A stretch of DNA of 64,000 nt from a virus, in IMG/VR virus record IMGVR_UViG_3300011114_001049, positions 36,275-100,274 of that record, one strand, 5' to 3'. The notes below the pieces were generated by a model. It had not been told where the DNA came from and ran no database searches. It saw nothing but the letters and a program-made list of their open reading frames with translations. The position numbers were made by a program, and so were the translations under genes. Numbering within the stretch: position 1 is the first letter of the stretch; every line of letters starts with the position of its first letter. Shown here piece by piece: positions 22,935 through 64,000 of this stretch.

Positions 22935-23381
22935 ATGAATAGAAAAATAAAGACATATAATGATTTCACTAATGAATCGACTAGAGAAGTCGTTTACCCT
23001 AGTAATTTTAAAGGTATGGTCCAAAGTACCTTATCTGGACTCTATACTCAGATCATTGCTATAGCTCAAGAATTAGCTAACGAAAAAGCCGCTAGAAACC
23101 CAGGTAGGTACTCAGGTACTCTAGAAGAGGTAGATATTACTAGGGCTATGAATATGATATTCCACAGCGATTGGAAGAAGAAGATTAAAGAGAGGGCCAT
23201 TGGAGAGGTTTTACAAAAGTCAATGGCTAGGGCAGGTAAACAGGATGAAGTTATAGGTAAGAAGAATCTTAGAGCATTAGGTAGATCAAATGGAGATACT
23301 GACTTTAAGGTAGACATCAATAAATCTAGTGTAAGATTTAGTGATAAAAAAGATGGTGGTGGGACTGGTTCAAACCAATAA
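22935..23381 (+). CDS. targeting-peptide basic protein
   Basis: 148 residues. The start MNRKIKTYNDFTNESTREV is a strong match (T-N-E before Ser, like the F-x-N-E core of neighbours). The rest is basic, with helices (RAMNMIFHSDWKKKIKERAIGEVLQKSMARAG) and a Gly/Lys-rich end, consistent with DNA contact. It is separated from the previous stop by one base and from the connector gene by six. Confidence 0.6.
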   Translation: MNRKIKTYNDFTNESTREVVYPSNFKGMVQSTLSGLYTQIIAIAQELANEKAARNPGRYSGTLEEVDITRAMNMIFHSDWKKKIKERAIGEVLQKSMARAGKQDEVIGKKNLRALGRSNGDTDFKVDINKSSVRFSDKKDGGGTGSNQ

Positions 23382-40533: not shown

Positions 40534-41079
40534 ATGCCAAAGTTTAAAAAGTTTTCACAGTTTGTAAACGAAGCTGAAGTAATGACTATTCCACTTAAGG
40601 GATATGAAACAGACGTTGTTATCCAAAGAATAGAAGAATTAGTGGAAGCCCTTTCAGATGGAGTTAAGTTTGGAGTCCCATCAGATTACTTGGGTAGAGC
40701 AACTACGTATAAAGATGCAAACGGAGCTATTCAAAGAATAAAAGACATACAACATTACTATGACAGTAAAGCGGAAGAAGTTAGATTCTACTGTTGGTCG
40801 ATAAGTTATGAAGGCAGCTGGAAAGCTACTAAAAATTTAAGAAGTAAGATAGAAAAAGCAGGTGGTTTTGGAGATCAACCAAATAATATAAACTTAAAAA
40901 AAGTAATTGATTATTTTACTGAAAACGCTGAGGATTCAGATAATGTTGCAACTATCTCAATCAGCATAGATTCACCTACTGTTAGAAAATCAATGCAAGT
41001 CACAAAACCTGCGGAAACTCAACCACAGCAACCGACTAATACTCGACCACAAGAGCCGGCTGAAGAACAAGAAGCATAA
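40534..41079 (+). CDS. targeting-peptide protein with Pro/Gln-rich tail
   Basis: 181 residues. The start MPKFKKFSQFVNEAEV is a strong match (V-N-E before Ala). A globular middle has an Ile/Trp-containing alpha/beta pattern (EVRFYCWSISYEGSWKATKNL). The last 25 residues are Pro/Gln/Glu-rich. Unknown function; probably cargo. Next gene starts five bases after its stop. Confidence 0.6.
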   Translation: MPKFKKFSQFVNEAEVMTIPLKGYETDVVIQRIEELVEALSDGVKFGVPSDYLGRATTYKDANGAIQRIKDIQHYYDSKAEEVRFYCWSISYEGSWKATKNLRSKIEKAGGFGDQPNNINLKKVIDYFTENAEDSDNVATISISIDSPTVRKSMQVTKPAETQPQQPTNTRPQEPAEEQEA

Positions 41080-49371: not shown

Positions 49372-50844
49372 ATGGCACTGGACCAAATCATACTTACTAC
49401 ACTGGACCCAACCTTAAGCTTGGTAGAACTGACTGATCTAGACGACTCTAGAGATGTTAAGTCACTTGCCCTTACGAAAAAGCCCAATCATAGACCAAGT
49501 ACTGCGCAAACTGCAGGTAGAGACGAGCCGTTCATACAAATAAATGGCTACTCCGTTCTTAATATAGATTCGTTTATAATAGATGAAACTAACTTTTTAC
49601 CAAGTATGACTCTAATCTTCGTTGATGAGTCTGGAGAGTTTAATGGAAATTCTTTTCCTAAAACAAATATGATAGTTAGTTCCTATGTGAAAGTAGCTAA
49701 TGGAAAATTTAAGCCGTTACGCCAAGACTGGTTAATAACTTCAATTCGATCTATACCGACTAAAAAAGGAAATTCTGATTCAGCATCAGGTGGAATAGAA
49801 TACGTCATAAAAGGGGAACTGTTCATACCTAGATTCTATAACAACGTCTCTAAGAGCTATGCTAGCCTTACCTCAAAGGATGCTCTATTTAAAGTGGCAG
49901 AGGAACTAAAAATAGGTTTTGCTGAAAACTTAGTTAAGCCAGCAGACTCAATGACGTGGTTAAACTTTAACACTAGCCCTGCTAACTTTATAAAAGACGT
50001 AATTAGTCACTCTTATCAGGATGAAGACTCTTTTTTTACTTCATTTGTTAACAAAGAATACTGTTTAAACTATATAAACGTTAATGTACAGCTCATGCAA
50101 ATGGAATCAGACAGTACTTTTAATACTCACCTTGATGCTGGTGCAATCGATACAAGCTCACTTTCTAAATCAGAAGAAAGCGATTCTACTACTCTAAACT
50201 TTCTTACTACTATGCAAAACAGCAAAGGGAAACCTCATTACATAGTAGGACTTTCTCTACATTCAGACCAAGGTCAAATTTTAAAGAGCAGTGGATACAA
50301 GAAGAGGATTTATTATTACGATTATACGTTAGAGGGAGAGCCGGCTGATAAGTTCGTAGACTATTTTGTAGCTCCAACAAACACGGTTGGACTCGCTGAA
50401 GACCAGGTACTTTTACCTGAGCCTGAGGGATTATCTGATGTAGGTCTTAAAAAGTGGATGAATATTGAGTACGGTAACACTCATCAAAACTGGAATCATG
50501 CTAAAATAGCAAACGATATAAATCTAAAGGAATTAGAAAAGATACAGCTTAAAATATCTTTGGCTGGAATAAATTTTCAGGTGATCAGAGGATCGGTGAT
50601 ATCGGTGATAATAACGCAGAGAGTTGCTGACCAGATTAGAAAAGAGAATGATCCAAGAAAACCAGCAAACGAAGGTAATCGTAAGGCAGAAGATGAGGTG
50701 CCTGATGTACAGCTAAGCGGTAAATATTGGGTAAAAGGAGCAAAATACTATTTCGATGGAGAGGCTAAAGAATTTAGCACAGAGCTGATCTTAGCTCGAA
50801 GAGAATGGGTTGCTTCTAAAAAAATAAAGACACCAAATGTTTAA
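49372..50844 (+). CDS. baseplate hub protein (gp27/VgrG N-domain-like)
   Basis: 490 residues. It contains DEDSFFTSFVNKEYCLNYINV, the pattern of hub proteins in which a short substrate-like chain wraps inside a ring, and a C-terminal beta domain with KISLAGINFQVIRGSVISV and YWVKGAKYYFDGEAKEFST. The spike protein gene gp5 follows two genes later. Hub proteins of gp27 type form the trimer under the tail tube. Assignment is by fold style and order. Confidence 0.6.
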   Translation: MALDQIILTTLDPTLSLVELTDLDDSRDVKSLALTKKPNHRPSTAQTAGRDEPFIQINGYSVLNIDSFIIDETNFLPSMTLIFVDESGEFNGNSFPKTNMIVSSYVKVANGKFKPLRQDWLITSIRSIPTKKGNSDSASGGIEYVIKGELFIPRFYNNVSKSYASLTSKDALFKVAEELKIGFAENLVKPADSMTWLNFNTSPANFIKDVISHSYQDEDSFFTSFVNKEYCLNYINVNVQLMQMESDSTFNTHLDAGAIDTSSLSKSEESDSTTLNFLTTMQNSKGKPHYIVGLSLHSDQGQILKSSGYKKRIYYYDYTLEGEPADKFVDYFVAPTNTVGLAEDQVLLPEPEGLSDVGLKKWMNIEYGNTHQNWNHAKIANDINLKELEKIQLKISLAGINFQVIRGSVISVIITQRVADQIRKENDPRKPANEGNRKAEDEVPDVQLSGKYWVKGAKYYFDGEAKEFSTELILARREWVASKKIKTPNV

Positions 50845-51976
50845 CTTTTTTAATGTAGCTAGAAGCGTAAATGGATTTAGAAGAGGGTATGTAACTGATC
50901 CCTTTGACGAACCTACTTACCTAAGTTTTGGTATAGATTTTAGCTTTGACGGACTTGATAATTTAACTGTAAACTCTCTATGGGCCAGCCCACTATTCGC
51001 ACAAGGAAGCACGGCTAATCCAAATTCTGCAAGTAGTTACTTGGGGTCAATTGGTAGAAACGACATGGAAGATGCACTAGCTACATTCAAGGGATCGCTA
51101 GATTACATTTCTACGAAAACACCTTGGTACTTTCAAAGCATTGGAGGTTTGGATAAGATGTATAAGGCTGCAACTGACATGACTAGTGCTAAGAAATACG
51201 ATCAAATTCTAACGATTGAGACGCTAGAGGCAGTAGATTTACGGATAAGTCAGCTTGCAAACCTGTATAGAGCAGCGATATATGACAAAGAGGCAATGCT
51301 TGCCAGGGTTCCTGAAAACTTAAGATGGTTTACGATGGAAGTTTGGGTGGCAGAAACTAGAAATATGAGGTTTGAAATACCAGGACTAGCGGGTAATGCT
51401 GCAAACGCACTAGGTATAAACACAGCAGCAATAAACGGAGTTGCTAGTAAAATATCATCGTCGCTGAGCGGGCTAGGTCTAATGGATGACGCAAACAGTA
51501 CCATCAAACAGTTTGGATTCATGAAATTTAAGTGTAGACAATGTGAGTTTGATTTCAGTGGTAGCTTTGCAGGTGGACCACAACCAATGGAGATAGCTAC
51601 TAAAAGCACGCCTAACACTAGTACGTTTGATATAAAGGTAGGTTATTTTGAGGAAGAGAGTGGATATTACGATGGAACTAAACTCTATGATGATGCTACA
51701 AAGAACAGGGTGAATAATCCATGGAGACAGGCAAAAATCTTAGCTGCTGGTGCTGGTGTACTAGACTCAGTAGTAGGTCTACCGTTTGTAGGTAATGCGG
51801 CAGCTAAAGGCATAGAGGCCGTTTCAAATGGATTAAAGACAATAGGTGGTCTTACTAACAAGGTGACTGACCCTATTACAAACCTTCTCTATGCTCCAGT
51901 AAAAGACTTGGGTGATGTATATCCAGACAAACAAAAACCGTCTTCTCCGACTAATTTAGGAGACGTATACGATTAA
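50837..51976 (+). CDS. baseplate/tail tube initiator-like structural protein
   Basis: 379 residues. It contains QFGFMKFKCRQCEFDFSGSFAGG and STFDIKVGYFEEESGYYDG, features of tube-like beta-barrel proteins (compare gp48/gp54/gp19 folds). The C-terminal region has small-residue stretches (LAAGAGVLDSVVGLPFVGNAAAKG) that may be a flexible connector. The start overlaps the hub gene end by eight bases. Role inferred from context. Confidence 0.5.
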   Translation: MFNFFNVARSVNGFRRGYVTDPFDEPTYLSFGIDFSFDGLDNLTVNSLWASPLFAQGSTANPNSASSYLGSIGRNDMEDALATFKGSLDYISTKTPWYFQSIGGLDKMYKAATDMTSAKKYDQILTIETLEAVDLRISQLANLYRAAIYDKEAMLARVPENLRWFTMEVWVAETRNMRFEIPGLAGNAANALGINTAAINGVASKISSSLSGLGLMDDANSTIKQFGFMKFKCRQCEFDFSGSFAGGPQPMEIATKSTPNTSTFDIKVGYFEEESGYYDGTKLYDDATKNRVNNPWRQAKILAAGAGVLDSVVGLPFVGNAAAKGIEAVSNGLKTIGGLTNKVTDPITNLLYAPVKDLGDVYPDKQKPSSPTNLGDVYD

Positions 51977-52007: not shown

Positions 52008-52679
52008 ATGAGTAGAAATCACGATATAACGGCTAGAGACTTTGATGACCTCTTAGATAAACAATTCTTAGGAATAATTGTGGATATCGAAGATCCTAGA
52101 AAAGAAGGTAGGGCAAAGGTAAGAGTAGCAAGTATATATGACGAAATTCCAGTTGAAGATATACCTTGGGCATTTCCTAAAAATAGGGGAACTGTTTTTG
52201 GGAAAGCAGGTAAGGGCGGAGCTGTCTCTATACCTAAACTGAATTCAGTAGTTGCAGTTGTTTTTGATAACGGTAACCCATATTCACCTGAATATTTTGC
52301 TCTACAAGAATTAGCAGAAGACGTTAAGGGAGAACTAAACTCTGAGTATGCAGGAAGTCATATAGTTCTTTTCGATGGGGACCAGGAATTAAAGATCTGG
52401 TTTAGTGTAAGTAAAGGACTCACTCTTTCAGTAAAAGGAGCGTCAATTAATATAGACAAAGAAAATCAAATAACTATGAAGACTGATAATAAGGTAATTA
52501 TTGATTCTCCAAATATTGAATTAGGTAAATCATCATCAGCAGCAATTGCTGAATATTTGATTAAAGGTAAGACTTTTTTAAAGCTTTTTAATGCTCACAC
52601 TCACCCAGGCTCAGGAGCGCCACCTATTCCACAATTACTACCAGGTGTAGTACTTAGTAAAACAACAAAAACAAAGTAA
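52008..52679 (+). CDS. gp5: baseplate spike protein (gp5 / VgrG-like)
   Basis: 223 residues. Residues about 18-75 are the OB-fold domain with I-V-D-I-E-D-P-R-K-E-G-R-A-K-V-R-V and P-W-A-F-P. Residues 110-190 are a triple-strand beta-helix-like repeat (LSVKGASINIDKENQITMKTD), the membrane-piercing needle. The end holds H-T-H-P-G-x-G-A-P-P, the metal- or sharp-tip style PAAR-like motif of spike proteins. There is no lysozyme domain as in T4 gp5, so a separate muralytic enzyme must serve. Confidence 0.82.
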   Translation: MSRNHDITARDFDDLLDKQFLGIIVDIEDPRKEGRAKVRVASIYDEIPVEDIPWAFPKNRGTVFGKAGKGGAVSIPKLNSVVAVVFDNGNPYSPEYFALQELAEDVKGELNSEYAGSHIVLFDGDQELKIWFSVSKGLTLSVKGASINIDKENQITMKTDNKVIIDSPNIELGKSSSAAIAEYLIKGKTFLKLFNAHTHPGSGAPPIPQLLPGVVLSKTTKTK

Positions 52680-53263
52680 TGGAAGAACTAGCAGAACAAA
52701 TAAAAGGAATCAAAGAATTAGGTAACCTAGGTACAGACATACCTGGGTTAAATAAGGACAAGGTAATAGAAAACATAATTAAGAAGGATGAAAATTTAGG
52801 TGGATACCTAAAGATGATTGATGCTGATAAAGAGGAAAACATAGAGAGAGGAATGTCTAAAGAAGAGGCAGAAAAGAAGGCAAAAGAAGACGCAAAGGCT
52901 GTGCTTGATGGTGTAAAAAAGAGTCTTGAGCCAATGGTTGAAGAGGAAATAATCAAGATGAAACAGGAATATAAAATAGCAAAAGAAGCACTAGACTCTA
53001 TTCCAGCTGAAGTTACAGCAACTGTTGCAAACGCTGCATTACCAGCTGCATTACCGCCAGCTGTCCCTAATCCAGCATATACGCTAGGTGTGGCTGTGCA
53101 GACTAAGAAAAGCATTCTTAAAACTTTGAATGTCGTGCTGTCATCGTTGACTACTGTTCTAATGATAGCAACAAAATTAAAATTTAAGGTACCTGCACCT
53201 GTGATTGCACTAATCGCAGCAATAACGACTGTCACTAAATTACTTTCTGCAATCCCAGGTTAA
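52679..53263 (+). CDS. hypothetical baseplate-operon protein with hydrophobic C-terminal region
   Basis: 194 residues. The first 90 residues are charged and helical; an Ala/Pro hinge (AALPAALPPAVPNPA) leads to two hydrophobic segments (LKTLNVVLSSLTTVLMIATK, PAPVIALIAAITTVTKLL). The ATG overlaps the stop of the spike gene. It may be a tape-measure-like or membrane-inserting element carried inside the tube. Its TAA stop overlaps the minus-strand stop of the next gene. Confidence 0.5.
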   Translation: MEELAEQIKGIKELGNLGTDIPGLNKDKVIENIIKKDENLGGYLKMIDADKEENIERGMSKEEAEKKAKEDAKAVLDGVKKSLEPMVEEEIIKMKQEYKIAKEALDSIPAEVTATVANAALPAALPPAVPNPAYTLGVAVQTKKSILKTLNVVLSSLTTVLMIATKLKFKVPAPVIALIAAITTVTKLLSAIPG

Positions 53264-53868
53264 TTTACGTAGAGATTTTCAATACCTTCATAACGATAGT
53301 ATTTATTGAGTAGCGAGTCGGGGTGTACTGAGACTATGCTGTTATTTTTAGTAGATAGATTTTTAAAGTTTTCTAACATTAGCTTAAACCTAGGATCGTA
53401 CCACGTTTCATCATGTTTATTTAAAGAATCATAATCTAGCTCTTTCCAAAAATGACTAGGATTTGCCCATTTTAAAGATACTCCCGCAACATAAAAAGTC
53501 GCTGTACGATAGTTGAGGTAGTGTGACTTAAATATGGAAATAGCAGTTGTTACTGAATCAGGTAGAGACTTTTTATTGGGTCGATCGTAGACTTTAATCC
53601 AGTCTGGTAAATTTTTTATTTTCTTTGACTTATTTAACCAGTCGCTACTAAAACACTGTGATTTTGAGACTAGTGCCTTGACTACCTCAGGCTTCTTTTC
53701 TAGTTCCTTGAGTATCTCAAAATCGTTAAAGAAAAAGAAATTAGGTATGTGCTTTAACCAGATTCGATTAACGCCAAGCGTGATCACACTGGGGTCAAGT
53801 CGACTGAAGTCAATTTGATTTATTTGAGGATCGTTACCTAGGACGAGTATTTTTAGCTCTTTAACCAT
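53260..53868 (-). CDS. possible sialyltransferase-like or glycan-related protein
   Basis: 202 residues. Start M-V-K-E-L-K-I-L-V-L-G-N-D-P-Q-I, then L-D-P-S-V-I-T-L-G-V-N-R-I-W and F-F-F-N-D. This is the G-N-x-P/S...D-x-S-x-L...N...D layout of GT42 sialyltransferases and related O-antigen proteins; the later V-H-P-D-S-L-L could match their last motif. The match is at the level of pattern, not alignment. Last gene of the nonulosonic-acid operon. Confidence 0.4.
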   Translation of the reverse strand: MVKELKILVLGNDPQINQIDFSRLDPSVITLGVNRIWLKHIPNFFFFNDFEILKELEKKPEVVKALVSKSQCFSSDWLNKSKKIKNLPDWIKVYDRPNKKSLPDSVTTAISIFKSHYLNYRTATFYVAGVSLKWANPSHFWKELDYDSLNKHDETWYDPRFKLMLENFKNLSTKNNSIVSVHPDSLLNKYYRYEGIENLYVN

Positions 53869-54152
53869 TCTCTAGCATTTATTGCCTTATCGTCTATAAA
53901 AACATCGTATGCAGGCTTACCGAACCTAAGCTCGTGGTATTTAACGCCATACTCCTCTAGCTGTAATTTAGTAAGTTGAGAAAGGTCTCTGCCAGTAACA
54001 GTTCCTCTAGCCGTCCACAAAACAATATGGTGACCTTCTTCGTATAGTGAGTTCACCTTTGCAATTGCTTCTGGAATTGCGATAGCTGTGCAGTAATCTG
54101 TCTTTACTATTAGTTCAAGTATAGTATCATCGATATCAATGAAGTATTTCAT
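53853..54152 (-). CDS. small HAD-type phosphatase
   Basis: 99 residues. F-I-D-I-D-D-T-I at residues 4-11, L-W-T-A-R-G at about 45-50, and K-P-A-Y-D-V-F-I-D-D-K-A near 80-91 form a complete minimal HAD core without a cap domain. Similar proteins occur in capsular and nonulosonic-acid loci as sugar-phosphate phosphatases. In this operon it could dephosphorylate a nonulosonic acid 9-phosphate, but this is inference. It overlaps both neighbours by 16-17 bases. Confidence 0.65.
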   Translation of the reverse strand: MKYFIDIDDTILELIVKTDYCTAIAIPEAIAKVNSLYEEGHHIVLWTARGTVTGRDLSQLTKLQLEEYGVKYHELRFGKPAYDVFIDDKAINAREWLKS

Positions 54153-54441
54153 CTAGGTTTATTTTTTTTGACTCTTTATATTCTTTCCAAGAAGTTGCGT
54201 CCATTAGGTCAGGAAAAAGTTCACCATCGTTACATGACTCCTTTACGTAAAGTTTGCCAGGAACCGAACACCCACACTGTTTGCAATAACCTAGCTTAAT
54301 ACAGTCTTCTCTGCATACCCAACTACGATAGACTACTTGTTCCTTTTCATGATGAGGTAACAGGTCAATATAATCACCAAACATTTTAGCGTTTCCTTCG
54401 ATAAATTGAAGCACATTTTTGATTGTTATTTTCCTAGACAT
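54136..54441 (-). CDS. Cys-rich putative zinc-binding protein
   Basis: 101 residues. C-x3-C, C-x2-C-x-C and one further Cys (CREDCIKLGYCKQCGCSVPG ... ESCNDG) suggest one or two zinc sites. The end M-D-A-T-S-W-K-E-Y-K reads as a small helix. I recall similar proteins near glycan genes in marine phages and bacteria. Role unknown. Confidence 0.5.
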   Translation of the reverse strand: MSRKITIKNVLQFIEGNAKMFGDYIDLLPHHEKEQVVYRSWVCREDCIKLGYCKQCGCSVPGKLYVKESCNDGELFPDLMDATSWKEYKESKKINLDEILH

Positions 54442-54452
54442 ACTGGTTTTGC

Positions 54453-55340
54453 TTATTTTCCTCTTAGTGTTTTTCTCTTTTGCATCTCAGAAGGTAAAAC
54501 TTCTCTAGCGCCATATCCTCCACGAGATGATTCGACGTCACGTATGCTTTTTACCAATTTAATTAGACCTTGAGGCTCAACTGAGGCCATCTGATCGCTA
54601 CCCCAAAGGGTTCTGTCTAGAGTTATGTGGCGTTCTATCCAAGTTGCGCCTATTACTGAGGCTGCGACAGTTGTTGTGAGTCCAAACTCATGACCAGAAT
54701 AGCCAACTTCGAACTTTCTATCGAATTCACTAGAGATATGTTTCAAGTAAGTAATATAGTCAAGGTTTAATTCATGATTAGGCGAAGGATAGGTGGAATT
54801 AGTGTGAAAAACTACGCCAGGTTGCGCTGCGACTATTGCTGAGTCTATTTCTGATTGTTTACTCATCCCAGTAGAAATAAGTACTTCATCACAACACTCA
54901 TTAGCATAGGTAAGAAGGTCGAGATCAGTTATTAGGGCAGAAGGTATCTTTACCATGACACCACGTTTTCCGTTGGGCAGTTGTGTGTGATACTTTCGCA
55001 TGAAATCAACAGAATCCTTGTCCCAGACCGATGCAAACCAGCTGATTCCTTTCTCTCTACAATAATCATCAATCTCATCGTATTCCTTTTCCCAAAGCTC
55101 AATATCTTTTTTGTACTGTAAGTAAGTAGTCTCTTCTTTTCTCCAAGGAACTAACTTAGGTTTACTCTTCTCTGCTTCAGGTACACAGGAGTCAGGGTTT
55201 CTTTTTTGGAACTTTACATAGCTACAGCCAGCAATAACTGCAACATCTATTAGCCGCTTGACATTACCTATAAAAAGACTAGTATCTTTACCGTATGCAT
55301 AATTTAGTCCAATCTCACCGATTATCTTTACTTTTTCCAT
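54453..55340 (-). CDS. neuB: nonulosonic (sialic) acid synthase, NeuB type, without SAF domain
   Basis: 295 residues. The TIM-barrel synthase is clear: G-E-I-G-L-N at 7-12, V-K-F-Q-K-R at about 42-47, W-F-A-S-V-W-D, K-I-P-S-A, I-S-T-G-M-S, H-T-N-S-T-Y-P-S-P, G-Y-S-G-H-E and I-E-R-H-I-T-L-D. It condenses phosphoenolpyruvate with an N-acetyl-mannosamine-type sugar to a nine-carbon acid. Bacterial enzymes are about 340-350 residues with a C-terminal antifreeze-like SAF domain; this one stops right after the barrel (ends K-R-K-T-L-R-G-K). Exact product (Neu5Ac, legionaminic or pseudaminic-type) is not decidable. Confidence 0.88.
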   Translation of the reverse strand: MEKVKIIGEIGLNYAYGKDTSLFIGNVKRLIDVAVIAGCSYVKFQKRNPDSCVPEAEKSKPKLVPWRKEETTYLQYKKDIELWEKEYDEIDDYCREKGISWFASVWDKDSVDFMRKYHTQLPNGKRGVMVKIPSALITDLDLLTYANECCDEVLISTGMSKQSEIDSAIVAAQPGVVFHTNSTYPSPNHELNLDYITYLKHISSEFDRKFEVGYSGHEFGLTTTVAASVIGATWIERHITLDRTLWGSDQMASVEPQGLIKLVKSIRDVESSRGGYGAREVLPSEMQKRKTLRGK

Positions 55341-56158
55341 TCGTCGTATGGTATTTTAAATATATTTTCGCAAGGTCTAAGTTTGATATTGGCTAGGGCA
55401 GGAAAGATGATCTTGTTGAAGTTTAGTTCAGGATTTGCGTGACTAACGTTATTTATGTTATTGATAAGAGTACTTGCGCTTGATCTCTTGAATAGTGCCC
55501 GAGTGGTCGCTTCATACTTTGTTTTAAGATCTTTTCTTACAGTTTCCATGTGATGCATGGTGATGATATTATTGTCAAACTCATGAGTAGTGGTTGGATT
55601 AGATGATATTCCTCTAGTAGGATCACACTTTACGAAAAACCGATTAGTCATCTTGGAAGACTCGTTGATTTTACAGATAAAAGGTACTCGAGAAGGATCA
55701 TATCCTCGATGTAAGGTAGGAAGTTTTACATAATTTATGAATCGAACAGCAGTCAAACTATAATCTTTTTTCTCGATCTCTGATTTGGCAATCGCGAACT
55801 GTTCTTCTACATAAAACTCATCAACATCCATGCAAAGATAATGAGTGCAGCCTTTTTTAAGAGCACTCTTTAGACCAAAATATCTCTTTTCCATTTCATA
55901 TGACTTTGCTCTAGCTATTGAATTAGCTATACTGTCTTTTAATGGAGTAAAGTTAGAAAACTTACTTAACTCGTCGACTAATCCTCTAACTTTTAGAGAG
56001 TTCAGAATAATTAGGTCCTCGTTTTTTATCTTGTGGCCAAACCATGATTCAGTCTGATAGACTACTTGTACATAGTCTACATGTTTTCTTATCTGTTTGA
56101 TTGAGTGTTCTAGGAGTTCTATTCCATCAAACACAATATAGGATACTCCAAGTTTCAT
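55328..56158 (-). CDS. glycosyltransferase (GT-A, GT92-like)
   Basis: 276 residues. Starts with a Rossmann-like half (MKLGVSYIVFDGIELLEHS) and has M-D-V-D-E-F at about residue 115 as the DxD metal site, followed by F-I-N-Y-V. No membrane helix. Overlaps the NeuB start by 13 bases. One of four or five glycosyltransferases in the operon. Confidence 0.7.
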   Translation of the reverse strand: MKLGVSYIVFDGIELLEHSIKQIRKHVDYVQVVYQTESWFGHKIKNEDLIILNSLKVRGLVDELSKFSNFTPLKDSIANSIARAKSYEMEKRYFGLKSALKKGCTHYLCMDVDEFYVEEQFAIAKSEIEKKDYSLTAVRFINYVKLPTLHRGYDPSRVPFICKINESSKMTNRFFVKCDPTRGISSNPTTTHEFDNNIITMHHMETVRKDLKTKYEATTRALFKRSSASTLINNINNVSHANPELNFNKIIFPALANIKLRPCENIFKIPYDEWKK

Positions 56159-56976
56159 TAGCTTATAATATTAGTTTTATCAGGCCTCATCTCGTTTCTT
56201 TCTAATACAGTTGCCTCCAAGACCTTAAATGGAGTTTCATATTTTTTCATATACTTAAGTAGTGCACTTGTGTCCTTTGGGAAACATGAACCTCCATAAC
56301 TTAGGAGTCCATCTGGGCCGGGCACTTGCGTGTGCATTGGATTTATCCAATTGTTTTCTAACATAAGGTCCCTAACTGATTCGTAGTTACATCCCATCTT
56401 TTCACAAAGTAAATAAATCTCATTAAAGAACTGAACTTTAACTGAATAGAAAGAATTAGCAAAGATCTTCATGCTTTCAGACTCAGTAGAAGTGCAGACA
56501 GATATTTTAGCATCTGGATAAAACTTAGAATAAAAATCAACTGCTTTTTTTAACTGTCCTCCTCCACATGAAGGTCCAGTCCCTAGCACAATATGAGACT
56601 GATTATTAAAATCTACAAGAGCGGTACGCTCGGTCAAAAACTCAGGATTGTGTATTATAGAAAGACCTGAAAATACCCTAGAAAGATTAACAGTAGTCTC
56701 AGGCTCAACTGTGCTCTTTAGCACAACTAAACCCGTAAAACTTTCAATTGCTAAAAAAGTTAAAGTCTCGACGATTGCTGATTTGTCGTATTCTGCCGTA
56801 CTTTCTTGATAAGGAGTCGGTAGAGATAAGAAGATTATATCTGAATCTAGACACGACTCTAGAGAACCTATTTTTTTATATTTGTCATAACCAATTAGGT
56901 CAGTCACTCCTTTCTGTTTAAAGCTTTCAAACATCGCAGAGCCTACGAAGCCAAGTCCAATTACTGCAACTTTCAT
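56158..56976 (-). CDS. UDP-glucose/GDP-mannose dehydrogenase-like protein lacking the C-terminal domain
   Basis: 272 residues against about 400-440 in normal enzymes. N-terminal G-L-G-F-V-G (residues 7-12), K-S-T-V-E-P, H-N-P-E-F, and the catalytic C in Y-G-G-S-C-F-P-K-D are present. Missing is the C-terminal UDP-binding domain. Catalytic Cys and NAD site suggest the two-step oxidation chemistry is retained, perhaps with another partner or substrate. Start and stop are clean, so truncation is not by a frameshift within the window. Confidence 0.8.
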   Translation of the reverse strand: MKVAVIGLGFVGSAMFESFKQKGVTDLIGYDKYKKIGSLESCLDSDIIFLSLPTPYQESTAEYDKSAIVETLTFLAIESFTGLVVLKSTVEPETTVNLSRVFSGLSIIHNPEFLTERTALVDFNNQSHIVLGTGPSCGGGQLKKAVDFYSKFYPDAKISVCTSTESESMKIFANSFYSVKVQFFNEIYLLCEKMGCNYESVRDLMLENNWINPMHTQVPGPDGLLSYGGSCFPKDTSALLKYMKKYETPFKVLEATVLERNEMRPDKTNIIS

Positions 56977-57003
56977 TTTATTGTTTTGTTATTTTTAAAG
57001 ATC

Positions 57004-57687
57004 TTAAAAACTATTGTAAAAGTTACCGGACCTTTTCATCTCTATATGCCTTTTATTAAATGCATTAACATAATCTTTTCTCTCTTTACCACCAATTGGT
57101 ATTTTTCTAGTTAAATTATTTTCATGTAAATATGACTTAATGAGTATTGAATTTACTTGAGCTATTCCATTAGGATAAGCAAGTCTAATTCTATTTTTAT
57201 ATTCAGTATCACAGCCAAATCTAGTACTATCATAATAACCTAAGGTTTTGAAGACTGCTCTATCTATGATTAAAACTGACTCGTTTGTCTGGGGATTGGA
57301 AGGTTTATTTGTTCCATTAAGATGATTGACTCTAACAAACCTACAACCGACTGCAACTGTTCCGTTTTTATTAAAGTAGTTAAGTTGACTTTTAAACCGG
57401 TTTGGGTAAGAAACATCGTCTGCACCATGTATTAAGTAATGAGTCCAAGTAGGATCAGCTTCTGCGTGTTTTAGCGCAGTATTTATGGAATAATAGGTTC
57501 CCATATTTTTACTGTTTGTTAGTAATTCTACTCCCTTAAACATAGCTATTTTTCTTTTGCTAAAATCTTTGGATGCGTCATCTACTACGATTACTCTAGA
57601 ATCAACGTTTTGAGAAAGTATAGAAGTCAAACACTCTTCAATAAACTTATAAGCATTGTACATTGGGACTATTACTAAAACTTTCAT
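57004..57687 (-). CDS. family 2 glycosyltransferase
   Basis: 227 residues. V-L-V-I-V-P-M-Y-N-A-Y, V-I-V-V-D-D-A-S-K-D and H-G-A-D-D mark a compact GT2 enzyme. The ATG overlaps the methyltransferase stop by four bases. Acceptor unknown. Confidence 0.85.
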   Translation of the reverse strand: MKVLVIVPMYNAYKFIEECLTSILSQNVDSRVIVVDDASKDFSKRKIAMFKGVELLTNSKNMGTYYSINTALKHAEADPTWTHYLIHGADDVSYPNRFKSQLNYFNKNGTVAVGCRFVRVNHLNGTNKPSNPQTNESVLIIDRAVFKTLGYYDSTRFGCDTEYKNRIRLAYPNGIAQVNSILIKSYLHENNLTRKIPIGGKERKDYVNAFNKRHIEMKRSGNFYNSF

Positions 57688-58316
57688 AGCCTTATCATTT
57701 CAATTAGGAAATCAGCATTGTCTCGATTATTTACATATGAAAACTTTTTTATTGAAACTATTTTACAAAGACCAGAATACCTTTGTTTTATTTGAGACTT
57801 AGCAGTATTTGTATTTTTTGAAAGAAATCTGACGTGTCCTTCTGAATCTTGATTAGGTAGCGTTGCTAAAATTACTGAACCTTTTTTTATTTTACTCAAT
57901 ACACCTAAGTCATCAGTAATGTGCTCTAAAAACTCAGTAGTGACTACTAAATCATAGTCTACTTGAGAATAATCATAGCTAGTAGCATCAGCAACGATAA
58001 AGGATGCAGGCAGATTTAGTTTATTAGCAAAGTCAATTGCAACAGAACTAAAATCAATACCTATATAGTTTAGTTGGGGTAGAATATTTGAAGATGCATC
58101 TGCGTTAGTTATTTCACTTAATAAACAGTCTGCAAATTGACCAGGGCCACAGCCTATGTCTAATATGTTAATAGCTCCCAGTTCCTTTATCCTAGCCGCT
58201 ATTATTTTCCAAACAGGGTACCATGGAGTCTTATCATATTTTAAAAAATACATGTATTCACTGCCTCCAGTTTTAAATACTTCATTATACCAATTATTAT
58301 CTAGTTCAGTTCCCAT
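57684..58316 (-). CDS. SAM-dependent methyltransferase
   Basis: 210 residues. N-I-L-D-I-G-C-G-P-G-Q-F is the SAM-binding motif I, I-G-I-D-F-S is motif II-like and T-T-E-F-L-E-H is a typical post-motif. Likely O- or N-methylates a sugar or nucleotide-sugar of the operon. Confidence 0.85.
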   Translation of the reverse strand: MGTELDNNWYNEVFKTGGSEYMYFLKYDKTPWYPVWKIIAARIKELGAINILDIGCGPGQFADCLLSEITNADASSNILPQLNYIGIDFSSVAIDFANKLNLPASFIVADATSYDYSQVDYDLVVTTEFLEHITDDLGVLSKIKKGSVILATLPNQDSEGHVRFLSKNTNTAKSQIKQRYSGLCKIVSIKKFSYVNNRDNADFLIEMIRL

Positions 58317-58323
58317 ATTATAT

Positions 58324-58947
58324 TTATATTTTGTATCGAATTACTTCAAAAACCTCAGCATAACGTATCCCGTTTTGTGCTCCACGAACAGTTGCAAGAG
58401 ATTGAATAAAATTGTTTTGAAAGTATATTCTATTTTTTTGAGTTTCGTATTTTGAAAGGGCAGTTATCTTATTTTGAACGTCTTGTTCTAAAAGATCGTA
58501 ATAAATTTGATTCTTAAAGCTAGTGTTGTTCCAAATAAGCTCATATGAAAGCACTGAACAGTTATTCTTAAAACACCTAACTGCTTCGTCAGCGATAGTT
58601 TTATGATCTTGATGGTAATCATCAACTGATGGAATAAAAACAAGTTTTGGTTCTAATTTTTTCTTTAAGACTATCATGTCATCTAGGATGCTCTGCCTAG
58701 CATAATTAAATACTCTTACTTGATAATCATAGAATAAAATGTCTTCTTCTAGAACACCTAATGATGTTAAAGACTCAATACATTCAGTCTTTAATGTATC
58801 TGGTGCTAGACCCTTAGGTAAAGACTCTTTACACATAGAGAAGACAGCAACTCTGACTTTATTTCCTTCTCTTACTAGTCTTGAAATAGTAGCACCACAG
58901 CCTAGTTCTGCATCATCAGTATGTGGTGAAAGTACTAATATACTCAT
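58324..58947 (-). CDS. PIG-L/LmbE-family deacetylase
   Basis: 207 residues. L-S-P-H-T-D-D-A-E at residues 6-14 and D-D-Y-H-Q-D-H form the zinc deacetylase signature of PIG-L. These enzymes remove N-acetyl from sugars such as GlcNAc. In this operon it could create a free amino sugar for the next gene, an acyltransferase, to re-acylate. Gap to AsnB is seven bases. Confidence 0.9.
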   Translation of the reverse strand: MSILVLSPHTDDAELGCGATISRLVREGNKVRVAVFSMCKESLPKGLAPDTLKTECIESLTSLGVLEEDILFYDYQVRVFNYARQSILDDMIVLKKKLEPKLVFIPSVDDYHQDHKTIADEAVRCFKNNCSVLSYELIWNNTSFKNQIYYDLLEQDVQNKITALSKYETQKNRIYFQNNFIQSLATVRGAQNGIRYAEVFEVIRYKI

Positions 58948-58954
58948 CTTATCA

Positions 58955-60709
58955 TTATTTTTTAACTAGACCAGAGTCTATCCAAACTTTTTTCCAGCAC
59001 CAGAAACCTAGTGCTGCACTCCTAAGGTATACTAAGTCTCTACCTGACTGTTCTGTTATACATGAAATTGTTAAATAGCCGTCTTCAGATAGTTCAGAAA
59101 CAGCACAGTCTTTTAGTGAATCTATTTGTGTTAGATATGTGTCTATCAAACTAAACCCAATCTTTTCACGGTTCCAGTGGTGTTGAGCTACTCCTCTATC
59201 ATTTAACATTTTCTTCAAAAAGTGTTTTCTTCCAAATCGACTGCTTATATGTTGATTCTCAGGTAAACTTAAAGCCACTGAAACTAATTCATGGTCTAGG
59301 AAAGGTGCTCTAACCTCTAAGGAATTTGCCATACTTGAAAAATCAAGAGTAGAATTCAGATCGCCCTTTACATAGGTCATTAATTCTAACCATCGATATT
59401 TTGAAGTCTCAGGAAAATCACTAGAGAGCTCAGAGAGTATTGGAGAAATTAAGTCAAAAACAGCGGATTCAGTTCTCTCATCAAGTAGCCCAGGAACATT
59501 AAAGTTACTAGGGTGTCTAAATATGTTGAATACTTGATCTCTTTCAGAAAAGGACGGTGCATCAATGTTGAGTCTAGTTGCGGCTTTGCGCTTATCAAAG
59601 AAACTTTTTGGGATGTTTGGGGTAGGTATTCTAGTGTATCCGAAAAAGAGCTCGTCTGCACCATTTGCACTCAGTGCAACCTTGTATTTTTTACTGACTT
59701 CTTTGCTTGTGATATATGGTATAAAACCAGACAGTGTTGCTTCTCCGGAAAAATCAGCATAGTGTGTTAAACATGCAAGTATATCAAAATCTTGAGGAAT
59801 GACTAATGAAAAGTCCATCTTAAAAAGCTTAGCGATATCTCGAGCATGACTCTCTTCTGGTGAAGTTAAGTGGACTGCATCTATTTTTTTAATGATAGCT
59901 GCAACTAGACTTGAGTCAACTCCTCCACTTAAGAATAGAGTTATTGGAACGTCTGACATTGTTTTACTTAATATCGCTTTTTCAATAGAATCCTCTACTT
60001 CTTGTGCGGTGATTCTTTGTTTAAAACACGGTGACCAGTATTTTTTGATTTCAATAGAATCACTAGAACTGGATAGCACACTCGCAGAATCAAGTCTTTT
60101 TATTCCATTGAATAGAGTTAAGTTAGTGAATATGCCGCCCAACAAAAAGTACTGCCAGACTGCTTCTAGATCTAATTTCCATTCAATTTGAGGTAATGCC
60201 TTTACAATAGCACCTGGATTAGATGAAAAATAAAGATTATCATCGTTATCAATATAGTAAAAAAGAGGCTTTTCTCCCATTCTATCTCTAGCTAAATAAA
60301 AATCACCAGTACCCTTATCATATAAACAGAAAGCAAATATTCCATTGATTAATTTAAGAGTTTCTTCAACTCCTCTTGTGACCAAAGATTTAAGCAGGAC
60401 TTCAGTATCGGAAGACCCATCAAAAGTCATTCCGTCTGCTAATAATGTCGACCTTAACTCAGAATGATTGTATATCTCTCCATTAAATACTAATAAGTGA
60501 TTCAAGTATTCCATTGGCTGATTTCCAGATTCACTAAGGTCTATTATAGAAAGACGATTATGAGCAAGCCCAAATCTGTCACCGCTAACTTCACAACTAA
60601 AGTCAGGTCCCCTTAACTCTTGCGACTCTTTCATGATTCGCAGTGAACTTGCATGAGCTTCGTTAAAGACGCTATTTGAATTAATTAATATTCCGCTTAT
60701 TCCACACAT
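58955..60709 (-). CDS. asnB: glutamine-dependent asparagine synthase-like amidotransferase
   Basis: 584 residues. Nucleophile C2 in M-C-G-I-S-G, glutaminase motifs H-N-R-L-S-I-I-D-L and S-D-T-E-V-L, and the ATP pyrophosphatase loop F-L-S-G-G-V-D-S-S. Length matches AsnB. In glycan operons members of this family amidate uronic acids or aspartyl groups rather than make asparagine. Overlaps the acyltransferase gene by 13 bases. Confidence 0.9.
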   Translation of the reverse strand: MCGISGILINSNSVFNEAHASSLRIMKESQELRGPDFSCEVSGDRFGLAHNRLSIIDLSESGNQPMEYLNHLLVFNGEIYNHSELRSTLLADGMTFDGSSDTEVLLKSLVTRGVEETLKLINGIFAFCLYDKGTGDFYLARDRMGEKPLFYYIDNDDNLYFSSNPGAIVKALPQIEWKLDLEAVWQYFLLGGIFTNLTLFNGIKRLDSASVLSSSSDSIEIKKYWSPCFKQRITAQEVEDSIEKAILSKTMSDVPITLFLSGGVDSSLVAAIIKKIDAVHLTSPEESHARDIAKLFKMDFSLVIPQDFDILACLTHYADFSGEATLSGFIPYITSKEVSKKYKVALSANGADELFFGYTRIPTPNIPKSFFDKRKAATRLNIDAPSFSERDQVFNIFRHPSNFNVPGLLDERTESAVFDLISPILSELSSDFPETSKYRWLELMTYVKGDLNSTLDFSSMANSLEVRAPFLDHELVSVALSLPENQHISSRFGRKHFLKKMLNDRGVAQHHWNREKIGFSLIDTYLTQIDSLKDCAVSELSEDGYLTISCITEQSGRDLVYLRSAALGFWCWKKVWIDSGLVKK

Positions 60710-61563
60710 AAATCTCTTAATTTTTTGGCAGGTACTCCAGCAACTAAAGTAAAATCGTCGACACTCTTAAGCACGACCGATCCGATACCTGTCATTGAAT
60801 CAGAACCGATAGTACAACTGTTTATTATTGAAGTTGATGGGGCAATCCAACACCTTTCTCCAATACTAACACTGCCTGCAATCATTGAATTAGCAATAAC
60901 TAGTGAGTGATTACCTAGCTTTACTCCATGCGCAATATGAACCAAATTATCAATTTTACAATTTTCACCAATTATTGTATTACCTAAGACTGCACGATCT
61001 ATACAATTATTATTTCCTATTTCAACTTTTCTTTCAATTACTACTCCACCGATATGAGGAACAAGTTCATACTCTCCATTTTCATCTAATTCATAACCAA
61101 AACCAACACCGCCGATTGTATTGTTTGAACCTATACTAACATCGTCACTGATTATAGTTCCTTTATGAATAACGTTATTATGACCGATTCTTACTCGATC
61201 TCCTATCTTTACGTCGTCATCAATGAAGTTACCCTGTCCTATACAACTAGCAGTATGCGTTTGATGATCTTCATAAAAGAACTTTCTAACTACATCCATA
61301 AATGCTTTCCTAGGTCGATCACAAAGTATGATTGCCCCATTAAAAGAATCTAATTCAATTATTTGTGGAGAAATGACTATTCCTGTCCTAACTGATTTAA
61401 TTTTATCTACGTTTTTGTCATTCACCCAAAAAATAAGAAATGGGACACTATTATTTTCACATAAATTTGAAGGTTTTTCAATAGTAGAATCAAGAGTCGC
61501 TCCAAAGAGTTTAAATTGAGTTTCCGAACCTAAAAAATTTAATATTTCACGTAAGGTAGTCAT
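60697..61563 (-). CDS. LpxD-like hexapeptide acyltransferase
   Basis: 288 residues. An N-terminal domain of about 100 residues similar in layout to LpxD, then left-handed beta-helix hexapeptide repeats ([LIV]-G-x4) from about 110 to 265, with the catalytic His candidate in L-V-H-I-A-H-G-V and ending in S-V-V-L-K-S-V-D-D-F-T-L-V-A-G-V-P-A-K-K. Likely acylates an amino sugar produced by the deacetylase upstream. Overlaps both neighbours. Confidence 0.85.
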   Translation of the reverse strand: MTTLREILNFLGSETQFKLFGATLDSTIEKPSNLCENNSVPFLIFWVNDKNVDKIKSVRTGIVISPQIIELDSFNGAIILCDRPRKAFMDVVRKFFYEDHQTHTASCIGQGNFIDDDVKIGDRVRIGHNNVIHKGTIISDDVSIGSNNTIGGVGFGYELDENGEYELVPHIGGVVIERKVEIGNNNCIDRAVLGNTIIGENCKIDNLVHIAHGVKLGNHSLVIANSMIAGSVSIGERCWIAPSTSIINSCTIGSDSMTGIGSVVLKSVDDFTLVAGVPAKKLRDLCVE

Positions 61564-63283
61564 CTATGTTAGTTATTTTTAAACTATTAATTAATTCTGC
61601 CTTTTTCAATAATTCAATTTTTTTATGAGTTATTCTACTAGAAGCAGCAAGTATTTGTTTTGTTTGGTTTATAACTTCCCAAGAACCTTTAATGCTTAAT
61701 ATAAAACTGTCTAACGAGACTAATTTCATACTGTTTCCATGTTTTTTAACTAAGTCATATCCAAAATCGTCTAGGTGAATAGGTCTAAGTGTTTTAAAAA
61801 TCTGCCAATTTACTTTATCTAAAAAATTCTTAGAAAACATCTTACCTCCTCCTAAAAAGATAGGCACTTCAGGTTTGTATTGTAGAAAATAAAGATTCTT
61901 ATCGAGGTCATATATGTACCATGAACGATTTCCAACTAAATCAAACCCATTTCTACTAGAACCAAAGCCTTCATCTATACTAGAGTAACATTCAGAAAAA
62001 TAGTTTAATGAGAGTAAGTCGTCTGATCCAAGTATCATCAAACCTTTAACATTTAAACGCTTAGCGTAAGTGACGCCAGCTTGCCATTTTCCACCAATTG
62101 GATAGTTTTGATGAATTGTAAAAAACACATTATCGTATTTCTTTTTTAATTCTTTACAAAATTGTGCATCAGCAGTATTAGATATAACTAAGACTATTGC
62201 AGGTAATATTGTCTGTTTACATAACGTTTCAACATTTAATTCAACTATACGGTGTCTTCCTTTAAAAGCAATTACACAAGCAGTATCGTATCCATTTACT
62301 GGTTGAGTTTCAGTAAATCCATTAGCGATCAAATTGTCGGTTTCTGCTATGCTGGCTATAAGTTTTGACTTATTTAACTGATAGTTACTAGATTCGCGAG
62401 AAGACTCCATAAGCAGTCTATTTACAGCGTCCATTTTTCTAGTAAAGTCAGCAGTTTGTGTCTTCTCGCGACCAGAGTCGACTATTTTTAAATAATTGTA
62501 AACGAAATTAGAACGAATTTGCGTTGCTTGCCGATTGTACTCATTACTTTTATTCAACCATATTCTGTTTATCTTTGAATTTGAGCGGTTTGGTGAAAGA
62601 ACGATTGGGTTTTTTCTAGCTGTCTCCTGGGAGAGAAGATCATTAAAATATATGCAATTTGATGTTTTTAATTTATGTTGAAGCTGAATAAACTTACTGT
62701 CTAAAAACTCTTTTGAACTAAATAGTTTTTCAGATATTTGTTTACATTGGCTGGTTGACTTTAGCATATTACATATAAACGAATGCGTCTGACCCAGTCC
62801 TAATGAGTTAACGTTTTCTATGCTATATTTAAGAGATGGTATATCAACATAATATCGTTTAAGATAAAAAAGCTCAACTGTTTCTGAAAAAATAAAGTCA
62901 CCTTCTGTTTTAAAGATTGAAGATACATCATTTAGAAAGAGACAAAAGTTAGAAAAATAAAAGACGTTTTCTTTAAATGAGTCAAGTGCAGCAATCTTAC
63001 TTAGATCCTGAATTGAAGCCATTGGATATGTATGTAACTTGTGAAATTTAGCTTCAACTAACTTAAAAAGTCTTGAAGTTTCAATGTTAATAAAAGTTAT
63101 GTCAGGATAAATTGATAAAAGTATTGCTTTATTTACATTAGATAAAGGATTTTGTGAGTTGATTAAAAAGTACAATTGACCCCTAAACCATTTGTTATTT
63201 TCTAAAAAGCTACATGTGCTAGTTATAGAGTATTTAAAATACTTATCGCTTGCTTCTGTTACTATTACTAAATCAGTTGTCAT
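61547..63283 (-). CDS. two-domain glycosyltransferase (GT8-like plus GT2)
   Basis: 578 residues. N-terminal region (1-170) has D-L-V-I-V-T-E-A and F-Y-F-S-N-F-C-L-F-L-N-D, resembling a GT8-type domain with a degenerate DxD. The C-terminal region (about 330-530) is a GT2-type domain with A-C-V-I-A-F-K-G-R and I-L-G-S-D-D-L-L. A linker rich in Asn and Ser joins them. Possibly adds two sugars in sequence. Overlaps NeuA by 11 bases. Confidence 0.65.
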   Translation of the reverse strand: MTTDLVIVTEASDKYFKYSITSTCSFLENNKWFRGQLYFLINSQNPLSNVNKAILLSIYPDITFINIETSRLFKLVEAKFHKLHTYPMASIQDLSKIAALDSFKENVFYFSNFCLFLNDVSSIFKTEGDFIFSETVELFYLKRYYVDIPSLKYSIENVNSLGLGQTHSFICNMLKSTSQCKQISEKLFSSKEFLDSKFIQLQHKLKTSNCIYFNDLLSQETARKNPIVLSPNRSNSKINRIWLNKSNEYNRQATQIRSNFVYNYLKIVDSGREKTQTADFTRKMDAVNRLLMESSRESSNYQLNKSKLIASIAETDNLIANGFTETQPVNGYDTACVIAFKGRHRIVELNVETLCKQTILPAIVLVISNTADAQFCKELKKKYDNVFFTIHQNYPIGGKWQAGVTYAKRLNVKGLMILGSDDLLSLNYFSECYSSIDEGFGSSRNGFDLVGNRSWYIYDLDKNLYFLQYKPEVPIFLGGGKMFSKNFLDKVNWQIFKTLRPIHLDDFGYDLVKKHGNSMKLVSLDSFILSIKGSWEVINQTKQILAASSRITHKKIELLKKAELINSLKITNIDDYLT

Positions 63284-63911
63284 TAATCTTTAAGAAGTCT
63301 TTTTCATAATCTACATCAATCTTATCTTCGATCTCCCAAAAAAGAGTCTCGCTATCATAGAGATTGTTATTTAATTTATTTATGTTCTTGGGCCTAACCA
63401 ATACGATGAAGTGAGATAGCTCGAAGCATTCATGATAGTCTTGTCGACGATATAGATCATGTTTAATTATTTGTTTGCCACGGTGACCAAAATCATACAT
63501 TAATAGAAAAGGGCTTGTTTTAGCAGGCTTCTTACAGAGAAGCGAGCTTACTGGCATTGCTGGTTCCATCATAATATAGAAGGCAACTGCATCTATTAAG
63601 TCGACCCATCGTCTTTCAGGATAAGTAAGATATAATACTGCGACTAACTCGTCTTCAGAAACATCCATTAAACCCAAGGCATGTTCGACTACTGCCTTCA
63701 TTGAAGTATTGTCTTGTGCTAGTTCAATAGGTCGACTTATACAGTTAAAACCAGCAGTAGCCGCCATCTCAAGTATCTTAGAGTCATCGCTAGTAACGTA
63801 AACATTTTCTCTAATCTCAATTGGGATTGATTCAGCAGTATACTTAAAAAGCGCTCTATTCTTGTGTGGAAACCCCTTAGATCCTTCCCTAGCAGGTATG
63901 ATTATTTTCAT
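63273..63911 (-). CDS. neuA: acylneuraminate cytidylyltransferase-like (NeuA)
   Basis: 212 residues. The signature I-I-P-A-R-E-G-S-K-G-F-P-H-K-N at 4-18 is that of CMP-nonulosonate synthetases; S-D-D at about 41-43 and L-A-Q-D-N-T-S and the L-Y-L-T-Y-P-E-R-R block follow. It activates the NeuB product with CTP for transfer. Together with NeuB it makes the last steps of a CMP-sialic-acid-type pathway. Its ATG overlaps the stop of the partial gene at the window end. Confidence 0.85.
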   Translation of the reverse strand: MKIIIPAREGSKGFPHKNRALFKYTAESIPIEIRENVYVTSDDSKILEMAATAGFNCISRPIELAQDNTSMKAVVEHALGLMDVSEDELVAVLYLTYPERRWVDLIDAVAFYIMMEPAMPVSSLLCKKPAKTSPFLLMYDFGHRGKQIIKHDLYRRQDYHECFELSHFIVLVRPKNINKLNNNLYDSETLFWEIEDKIDVDYEKDFLKINDN

Positions 63912-64000
63912 ATTTCATTAAATTTTTCTAGAGAAATCTTTGGAATCTCTAACTTACTAATTTCACTTAAATTGTAGAGAGAAGTTCCTCTTTTAGCTAG
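63908..64000 (-). CDS. 3' end of a gene continuing beyond the window
   Basis: The minus-strand frame is open from 64000 to a TGA at 63908-63910 that overlaps the NeuA start. Only 30 residues are visible, ending ISLEKFNEI. Too short to assign. By position it belongs to the glycan operon. Confidence 0.55.
   Translation of the reverse strand, partial: LAKRGTSLYNLSEISKLEIPKISLEKFNEI

Follow-up and report, generated by a model that had tools for sequence, protein, structure and literature searches.

A putative phage glycan locus with a nonulosonic acid core and an exchangeable middle beside baseplate genes

A tailed phage represented by a 100,274-base viral record encodes, beside its baseplate genes, an operon whose core genes very probably make a CMP-nonulosonic acid and transfer it. 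The middle of this operon is exchanged as a block between closely related phages, and we lean towards reading the operon as a whole as a phage glycan locus. In the mechanism that we propose, NeuB would condense PEP and a six-carbon sugar, either free or as its 6-phosphate, into a nonulosonic acid, and a small HAD phosphatase would take off a phosphate where the substrate bore one, as happens in the Kdn-9-P and Neu5Ac-9-P routes. NeuA would then activate the acid with CTP, and a GT42-fold enzyme would transfer it as the constant residue of the glycan. The enzymes of the exchangeable block, together with the dehydrogenase at its edge, would make and join the remaining sugars, such that sister phages would show different glycans, and assembly would most likely be carried out by soluble cytoplasmic enzymes on virion proteins.

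The operon and its genomic setting

The window, by which we mean the whole stretch of DNA analyzed (64,000 nucleotides), is the right-hand 64 kb of the record. A portal protein, DNA polymerase, primase, helicase, and tape measure are also encoded in the record, which identifies its source as a tailed phage. The operon comprises 13 minus-strand ORFs (53260-63911) facing plus-strand tail genes, the nearest recognized of which encodes a gp5-like protein. Eight of its 12 junctions overlap and the largest gap is 27 nt, in agreement with the single operon proposed in a preliminary description of this DNA, and all gene calls stand where that description had placed them. The features are as follows:

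52008..52679, plus strand: gp5-like baseplate hub/spike protein, constant neighbor of the cassette (phrog_430, 1e-14)
53260..53868, minus strand: g1, GT42-fold putative sialyltransferase, 202 aa (AlphaFold and fold search)
53853..54152, minus strand: HAD phosphatase, capless, 99 aa (motif residues; profile match to 9iqw)
54136..54441, minus strand: g3, Cys-rich small protein, 101 aa (alignment; phrog_13610, of unknown function)
54453..55340, minus strand: NeuB, SAF-less nonulosonic acid synthase, 295 aa (PF03102, 4.3e-58)
55328..56158, minus strand: GT276, probable glycosyltransferase (clusters by BLAST with GT2 proteins)
56158..56976, minus strand: UGD, short nucleotide-sugar 6-dehydrogenase, 272 aa, at the recombination edge (PF00984, 1.3e-19; PF03721, 2e-16)
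57004..57687, minus strand: GT2 glycosyltransferase, variable block (PF00535, 6.2e-23)
57684..58316, minus strand: SAM methyltransferase, variable block (Methyltransf_25, 8.1e-11)
58324..58947, minus strand: PIG-L family deacetylase, variable block (PF02585, 4.1e-16)
58955..60709, minus strand: AsnB-type glutamine amidotransferase, 584 aa, variable block (Asn_synthase, 4.9e-41; GATase_6, 2e-36)
60697..61563, minus strand: LpxD-like left-handed beta-helix acyltransferase, 288 aa, variable block (Hexapep, 4.2e-21)
61547..63283, minus strand: GT578, probable glycosyltransferase with a GT2-like domain, variable block (tblastn similarity to L010:361-1905)
63273..63911, minus strand: NeuA, CMP-nonulosonate synthetase, 212 aa, conserved upstream end of the cassette (CTP_transf_3, 4.1e-6)
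57008..63269, minus strand: exchangeable middle of the cassette (DNA homology breaks)

Due to the record ending at window position 64000, the operon is cut and therefore incomplete in the window; compared with the complete relatives of its own type (L015 and L011), the window is short of one MptE-like gene and the promoter. More than 30 contigs have the same junction between cassette and baseplate genes, so the window is not a chimera. Both ends of the cassette are fixed in the window's lineage, which reads: a reverse-strand DnaJ-like gene (c22), MptE-like, NeuA, the middle, NeuB, g3, HAD, GT42-like, reverse-strand gp5, and then further baseplate genes. At least 10 different middles can be read off the gene strings of complete cassettes.

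A scan of IMG/VR with NeuB found 78 loci on uncultured viral contigs in several genome contexts, and clustering of their ORFs assigned HAD to 71, NeuA to 52, and the GT42-like protein to 37, counts that come from fragmentary records. When the GT42-like protein was used for a further, independent scan, 14 new contigs reaching far enough upstream were obtained, and by hand count NeuB precedes HAD and g1 by a few genes in all 14. Searching 50,697 phage records with the window NeuB using tblastn retrieved only two viral records, both uncultured. A Moritella "phage" record with NeuB (FPLJ01000048.1, L147) was rejected as a bacterial capsule contig. The 484-kb uncultured phage LR756508.1 (L146) carries NeuB and HAD, several GT29-like genes, and NeuA approximately 14 kb away. 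A full-text literature search returned no account of a nonulosonic acid operon in a phage, and a few of the papers mention both neuB and viral auxiliary genes.

The nearest known relatives of the tail-region protein at 50837-51976 are mostly Bacteroidota phages (Tenacibaculum pT24, Flavobacterium MaF61, and Prevotella Lak phages), and the best matches of the portal are uncultured huge phages and Lak. A Bacteroidota host, as the preliminary description had supposed, is a reasonable reading of these similarities.

A TTGTATAA box lies at most 200 nt before the first gene (MptE-like) in all 12 cassettes that reach it. Across the whole window this box occurs five times against six expected and is not over-represented, which leaves the box no more than suggestive of a phage promoter. 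The Bacteroidota -7 motif TAnnTTTG was found upstream of the operon in none of the 12 cassettes. Genes outside the window are mechanically called ORFs. Elsewhere in the record, a GATTGT...TTGGTTATATTTACTTATAAC element is repeated before many small plus-strand genes (L002/L003, record positions ~15-28 kb) and is probably an early promoter, while ATAAATAA-type boxes precede minus-strand leader proteins. A shared leader, M-K-x(4-12)-F-x-x-F-[IV]-N-E-[SA], opens nine otherwise different proteins; the leader proteins lie at L002 671-11449 (minus strand, in the left part of the record) and at window 22935-23381 and 40534-41079. This leader resembles the capsid-targeting sequences of T4 internal proteins, which the prohead protease cleaves.

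The core enzymes

When phage NeuB was aligned to Neisseria meningitidis NeuB, every barrel active-site residue checked was present (E25, K53, Q55, K129, S132, S154, Y186, S213, H215, H236, and D247), a set which we take to be the PEP-, metal-, and sugar-binding residues; the NeuB assignment of the preliminary description, which had been staked on these catalytic residues, thus stands. NeuB, PseI, and SpsE structures in the PDB were matched at 4e-35 to 5e-18. Counting against the nonulosonic reading of the core, the SAF (antifreeze-like) C-terminal domain, which supplies a sugar-binding arginine in NeuB, was not found in the phage protein, with the alignment stopping before it, and neither the NCBIfam N-acetylneuraminate synthase cut-off (167.8 bits against 399.65) nor that for pseudaminate synthase (116.6 bits against 340.25) was reached. 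Short NeuBs without SAF are likewise seen in 54 cellular rows of our NeuB tree, and 6ncs is a crystallized 290-residue chain named sialic acid synthetase. In that tree of 115 sequences, 56 viral and 9 MAG-derived sequences fall in one group (support 100/100), and the NeuB clade of the window's lineage holds 28 rows, all viral and with no cellular row (support 100/99). NeuB therefore reads as a long resident of viruses as opposed to a recent pick-up from a host.

The assignment of NeuA is upheld by profile comparison, in which a profile of 35 relatives matches the CMP-Neu5Ac synthetase 6ifd at 7.1e-45. Its cytidylyltransferase domain carries the AR-x-GSKG-x(3)-KN type motif as an N-terminal PAREGSKG..KN, in which R8, S11, K12, K17, and N18 are invariant in the 35 relatives. 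The HAD protein likewise keeps its catalytic residues, as expected of the small phosphatase that had been proposed: the DxDxT, T, K, and D motifs are complete, and D6, D8, T10, T47, K79, and D88 are invariant in 32 relatives. Its profile matches the capsule-biosynthesis protein 9iqw (8.8e-22), and against NCBIfam EcbF-BcbF it scores 20.9 bits, far below the cut-off of 162. The g3 protein is fixed in its position between NeuB and HAD and has six invariant cysteines (C43, C47, C53, C56, C58, and C70) which may form a metal site. Its sole relative found in a known phage is in the crAss-like Cellulophaga phage phi14:2, where GroEL is close by and no glycan genes are annotated in the vicinity.

Sequence searches of PDB, Pfam, NCBIfam, and PHROGs did not identify g1, and no Pfam family was found across 26 members; only a fold search gave an identification. 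The AlphaFold model of g1 (pLDDT 93.3) had 13 PDB fold matches at E<1e-3, and all 13 are GT42 sialyltransferases (CstI, CstII, and the Pasteurella enzyme), with E-values of 4e-6 to 3e-4. The TM-scores on the query are modest at 0.42-0.50 and indicate membership in the same predicted fold family as opposed to close similarity. The "possible sialyltransferase-like protein" of the preliminary description is accordingly supported at the level of a confident model. Of 41 related records, 12 had GT29 sialyltransferases above the cut-off, compared with none of 14 control genomes, which strengthens the case for transfer of a CMP-activated acid. Compared to L006, dN/dS values for NeuB, HAD, g1, g3, and UGD are 0.03-0.08, so the core is under purifying selection. 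Families, fold, and co-inheritance together bear out a phage-encoded core of NeuB, NeuA, and a sialyltransferase-type enzyme.

The exchangeable middle and the proposed acceptor of the glycan

DNA homology between the window and L005 (97.7% identity), L006 (92.9%), and L010 (86%) spans the tail genes, g1, HAD, g3, NeuB, GT276, and UGD, and ends at 57008 in all three. In L010 it resumes at 63269, within NeuA. In place of the window's glycosyltransferases, methyltransferase, PIG-L, AsnB, and LpxD-like genes, L006 and L010 carry a module of dehydratase, WbqC-like, acyltransferase, and aminotransferase genes; the middle block is swapped whole in phages that are 93-98% identical alongside it. Between the window and L010, dS is 0.17 for UGD and 1.7-2.5 for its neighbors (NeuB 1.75, GT42-like 2.45, and gp5 1.68), so the UGD segment has moved by recombination.

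The enzymes in and around this block are assigned with differing certainty. GT578 has no Pfam match of its own and an unusable AlphaFold model (pLDDT 42), and its relative L010:361-1905 matches Glycos_transf_2 at 2e-18. GT276 also lacks a Pfam match of its own and is GT2-like solely through BLAST links to relatives. The acyltransferase matches an NCBIfam LpxD subfamily at 2.9e-54, below the cut-off, and the AsnB-type protein is above the NCBIfam cut-off for asn_synth_AEB and probably amidates a uronic acid. UGD aligns to positions 75-299 of the 413 in TIGR03026, and the C-terminal UDPG_MGDP_dh domain was not found by Pfam. Other shortened sugar enzymes are the DegT-type aminotransferases of 209-228 aa at L010 7733-8368 and L068 8674-9357.

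The preliminary description had placed the deacetylase, acyltransferase, AsnB, and methyltransferase in a pathway for an N-acylated, CMP-activated nine-carbon sugar. The core chemistry of that proposal and the genes themselves hold, but fixed membership of these four genes in the nonulosonic pathway does not, because they are replaced while NeuB, g3, HAD, and the GT42-like gene stay. Their place in an exchangeable block makes it more likely that they act in making or modifying the glycan's other sugars, for example a neighboring uronamide made with the dehydrogenase.

The same description had offered decoration of virion proteins or remodeling of the host surface as the purpose of the operon. 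Initiating transferase (PF02397), flippase (PF01943), and GtrA (PF04138) were found in none of 23 lineage records, six of them at least 100 kb long, and in 9, 13, and 7 of 14 control genomes, respectively; the lineage records are fragments, so the absence of these families is incomplete evidence. By hydropathy, only 15 of 362 cassette proteins have membrane spans, several of these being dehydrogenases. The lack of lipid-carrier and export genes and the scarcity of membrane proteins favor decoration of the virion over host-surface remodeling, and we would cautiously name the virion, glycosylated in the cytosol, as the target. In one relative, a histidine-kinase-type ATPase with predicted membrane spans lies inside the glycan cassette (L073 7122-8522).

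Nevertheless, the enzymes CstI and CstII act on bacterial lipooligosaccharide, and the lipid-linked oligosaccharide that known GT42s sialylate lies in the cytosol, so host lipooligosaccharide could be the acceptor even with no phage export genes. A nonulosonic glycan could then be added to host LOS/LPS or to a lipid-linked precursor and serve in receptor masking or superinfection exclusion. The resemblance of PIG-L, the LpxD-like protein, and AsnB to LPS-pathway enzymes, and of the variable middles to O-antigen loci, also points this way. Against it stand the missing transferase, flippase, and GtrA families and the near lack of membrane proteins described above, and slow replacement of LPS would be of little use to a phage with the lytic lifestyle that we assume. 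We therefore regard remodeling of the host surface as unlikely, and virion decoration as the preferred reading.

Identity of the sugar and comparison with known systems

The UDP-GlcNAc 2-epimerase family (PF02350) was not found in the window's own record or in 17 lineage records bearing the GT42-like gene, and was found in 7 of 41 viral records overall. The ORF list for the record's left 36 kb showed no precursor genes by eye, and the PF02350 search there was negative. The suggestion that a missing epimerase lies beyond the contig end is probably wrong, since complete cassettes of the same type and the lineage records lack PF02350. Instead, the lineage would use a hexosamine precursor supplied by the host, or a hexose phosphate. 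In other viral lineages this NeuB is accompanied by 4,6-dehydratases, DegT aminotransferases, and UDP-GlcNAc 2-epimerases, a legionaminic-type supply, and L070, which has the same tail flank, has a 2-epimerase with neither HAD nor a GT42-like gene. HAD could be taken as proof of a phosphorylated substrate, but this argument is weakened by HAD and NeuB also lying beside a 2-epimerase in L044, L051, L061, L067, and L068, so a phosphate route is not compelled. By analogy with the Kdn-9-P pathway, NeuB may use a hexose phosphate from whose product HAD removes the phosphate, which we put forward tentatively. With a SAF-less NeuB that falls below the NCBIfam cut-offs, the exact sugar is left open.

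The synthase might alternatively make another 2-keto-3-deoxy acid (C8 or another C9) in a Kdo-like locus. The SAF domain is missing as it is in KdsA, the pairing of HAD with a cytidylyltransferase resembles KdsC and KdsB, and the NeuA profile weakly matches KdsB. However, the synthase matches the NeuB family and not KdsA, the NeuA profile matches CMP-Neu5Ac synthetases approximately 33 orders of magnitude better than KdsB, and GT29 and GT42-fold enzymes accompany the synthase, making a Kdo-like locus quite improbable. Still less credible is glycosylation of phage DNA in which a terminal nonulosonic acid would protect against restriction, since a thymidylate synthase-family gene is absent from the window's own record and present in only three of eight relatives, and we know of no CMP-acid transferase that acts on DNA. 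In favor of this reading, glycosyltransferases that decorate DNA are known in phages (PMC12619734).

A nonulosonic acid locus, our preferred reading, has counterparts in cellular and viral systems. Kdn is made by a synthase, a phosphatase, and a CMP-synthetase in Bacteroides thetaiotaomicron (BT1714 and a phosphatase) and Prymnesium parvum (PMC6200933). The phage locus has genes for such a minimal three-enzyme route, which there starts from a hexose phosphate, and differs in having a SAF-less NeuB, a 99-aa EcbF/BcbF-like HAD, and transferases of its own following. Like bacterial Neu5Ac, legionaminic, and pseudaminic acid loci, it unites NeuB, NeuA, and glycosyltransferases in one operon, and some of the other viral relatives also share a dehydratase, aminotransferase, and 2-epimerase with such loci. 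In contrast, the window's lineage has no 2-epimerase, export, or lipid-carrier genes and adjoins baseplate genes; the lack of initiating transferase and flippase in its fragmentary records also separates it from Wzx/Wzy-type polysaccharide loci. The g1 protein is like CstI and CstII in its predicted fold and N-terminal GN-x-P motif, but is shorter and has no detectable sequence-family match. To our knowledge, no nonulosonic acid has been reported for mycobacteriophage virion glycans. Phage-directed glycans on virion proteins, which we propose here, are described for mycobacteriophages (Freeman 2023, cited in PMC12619734), with different genes.

The best-known nonulosonic acid on a prokaryotic virus is the 5-N-formyl-legionaminic acid on the HRPV-1 spike protein, for which the host makes the sugar (PMC6137143). 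In the present phage, for which a nonulosonic acid on the virion is proposed, the virus itself carries genes for synthesis, activation, and transfer. The locus also offers very short sugar enzymes, namely the SAF-less NeuB, the aminotransferase-like proteins of 209-228 aa, and the 272-aa dehydrogenase. Should the glycan sit on the virion, swapping the middle block would let phages vary their surface with no change to tail-fiber proteins. We tentatively suggest that this is a "serotype locus", in which a constant nonulosonic core flanks a recombining cassette and gives each phage of a probably Bacteroidota-infecting lineage a different virion coat; if true, it would be a viral counterpart of capsule and O-antigen switching.
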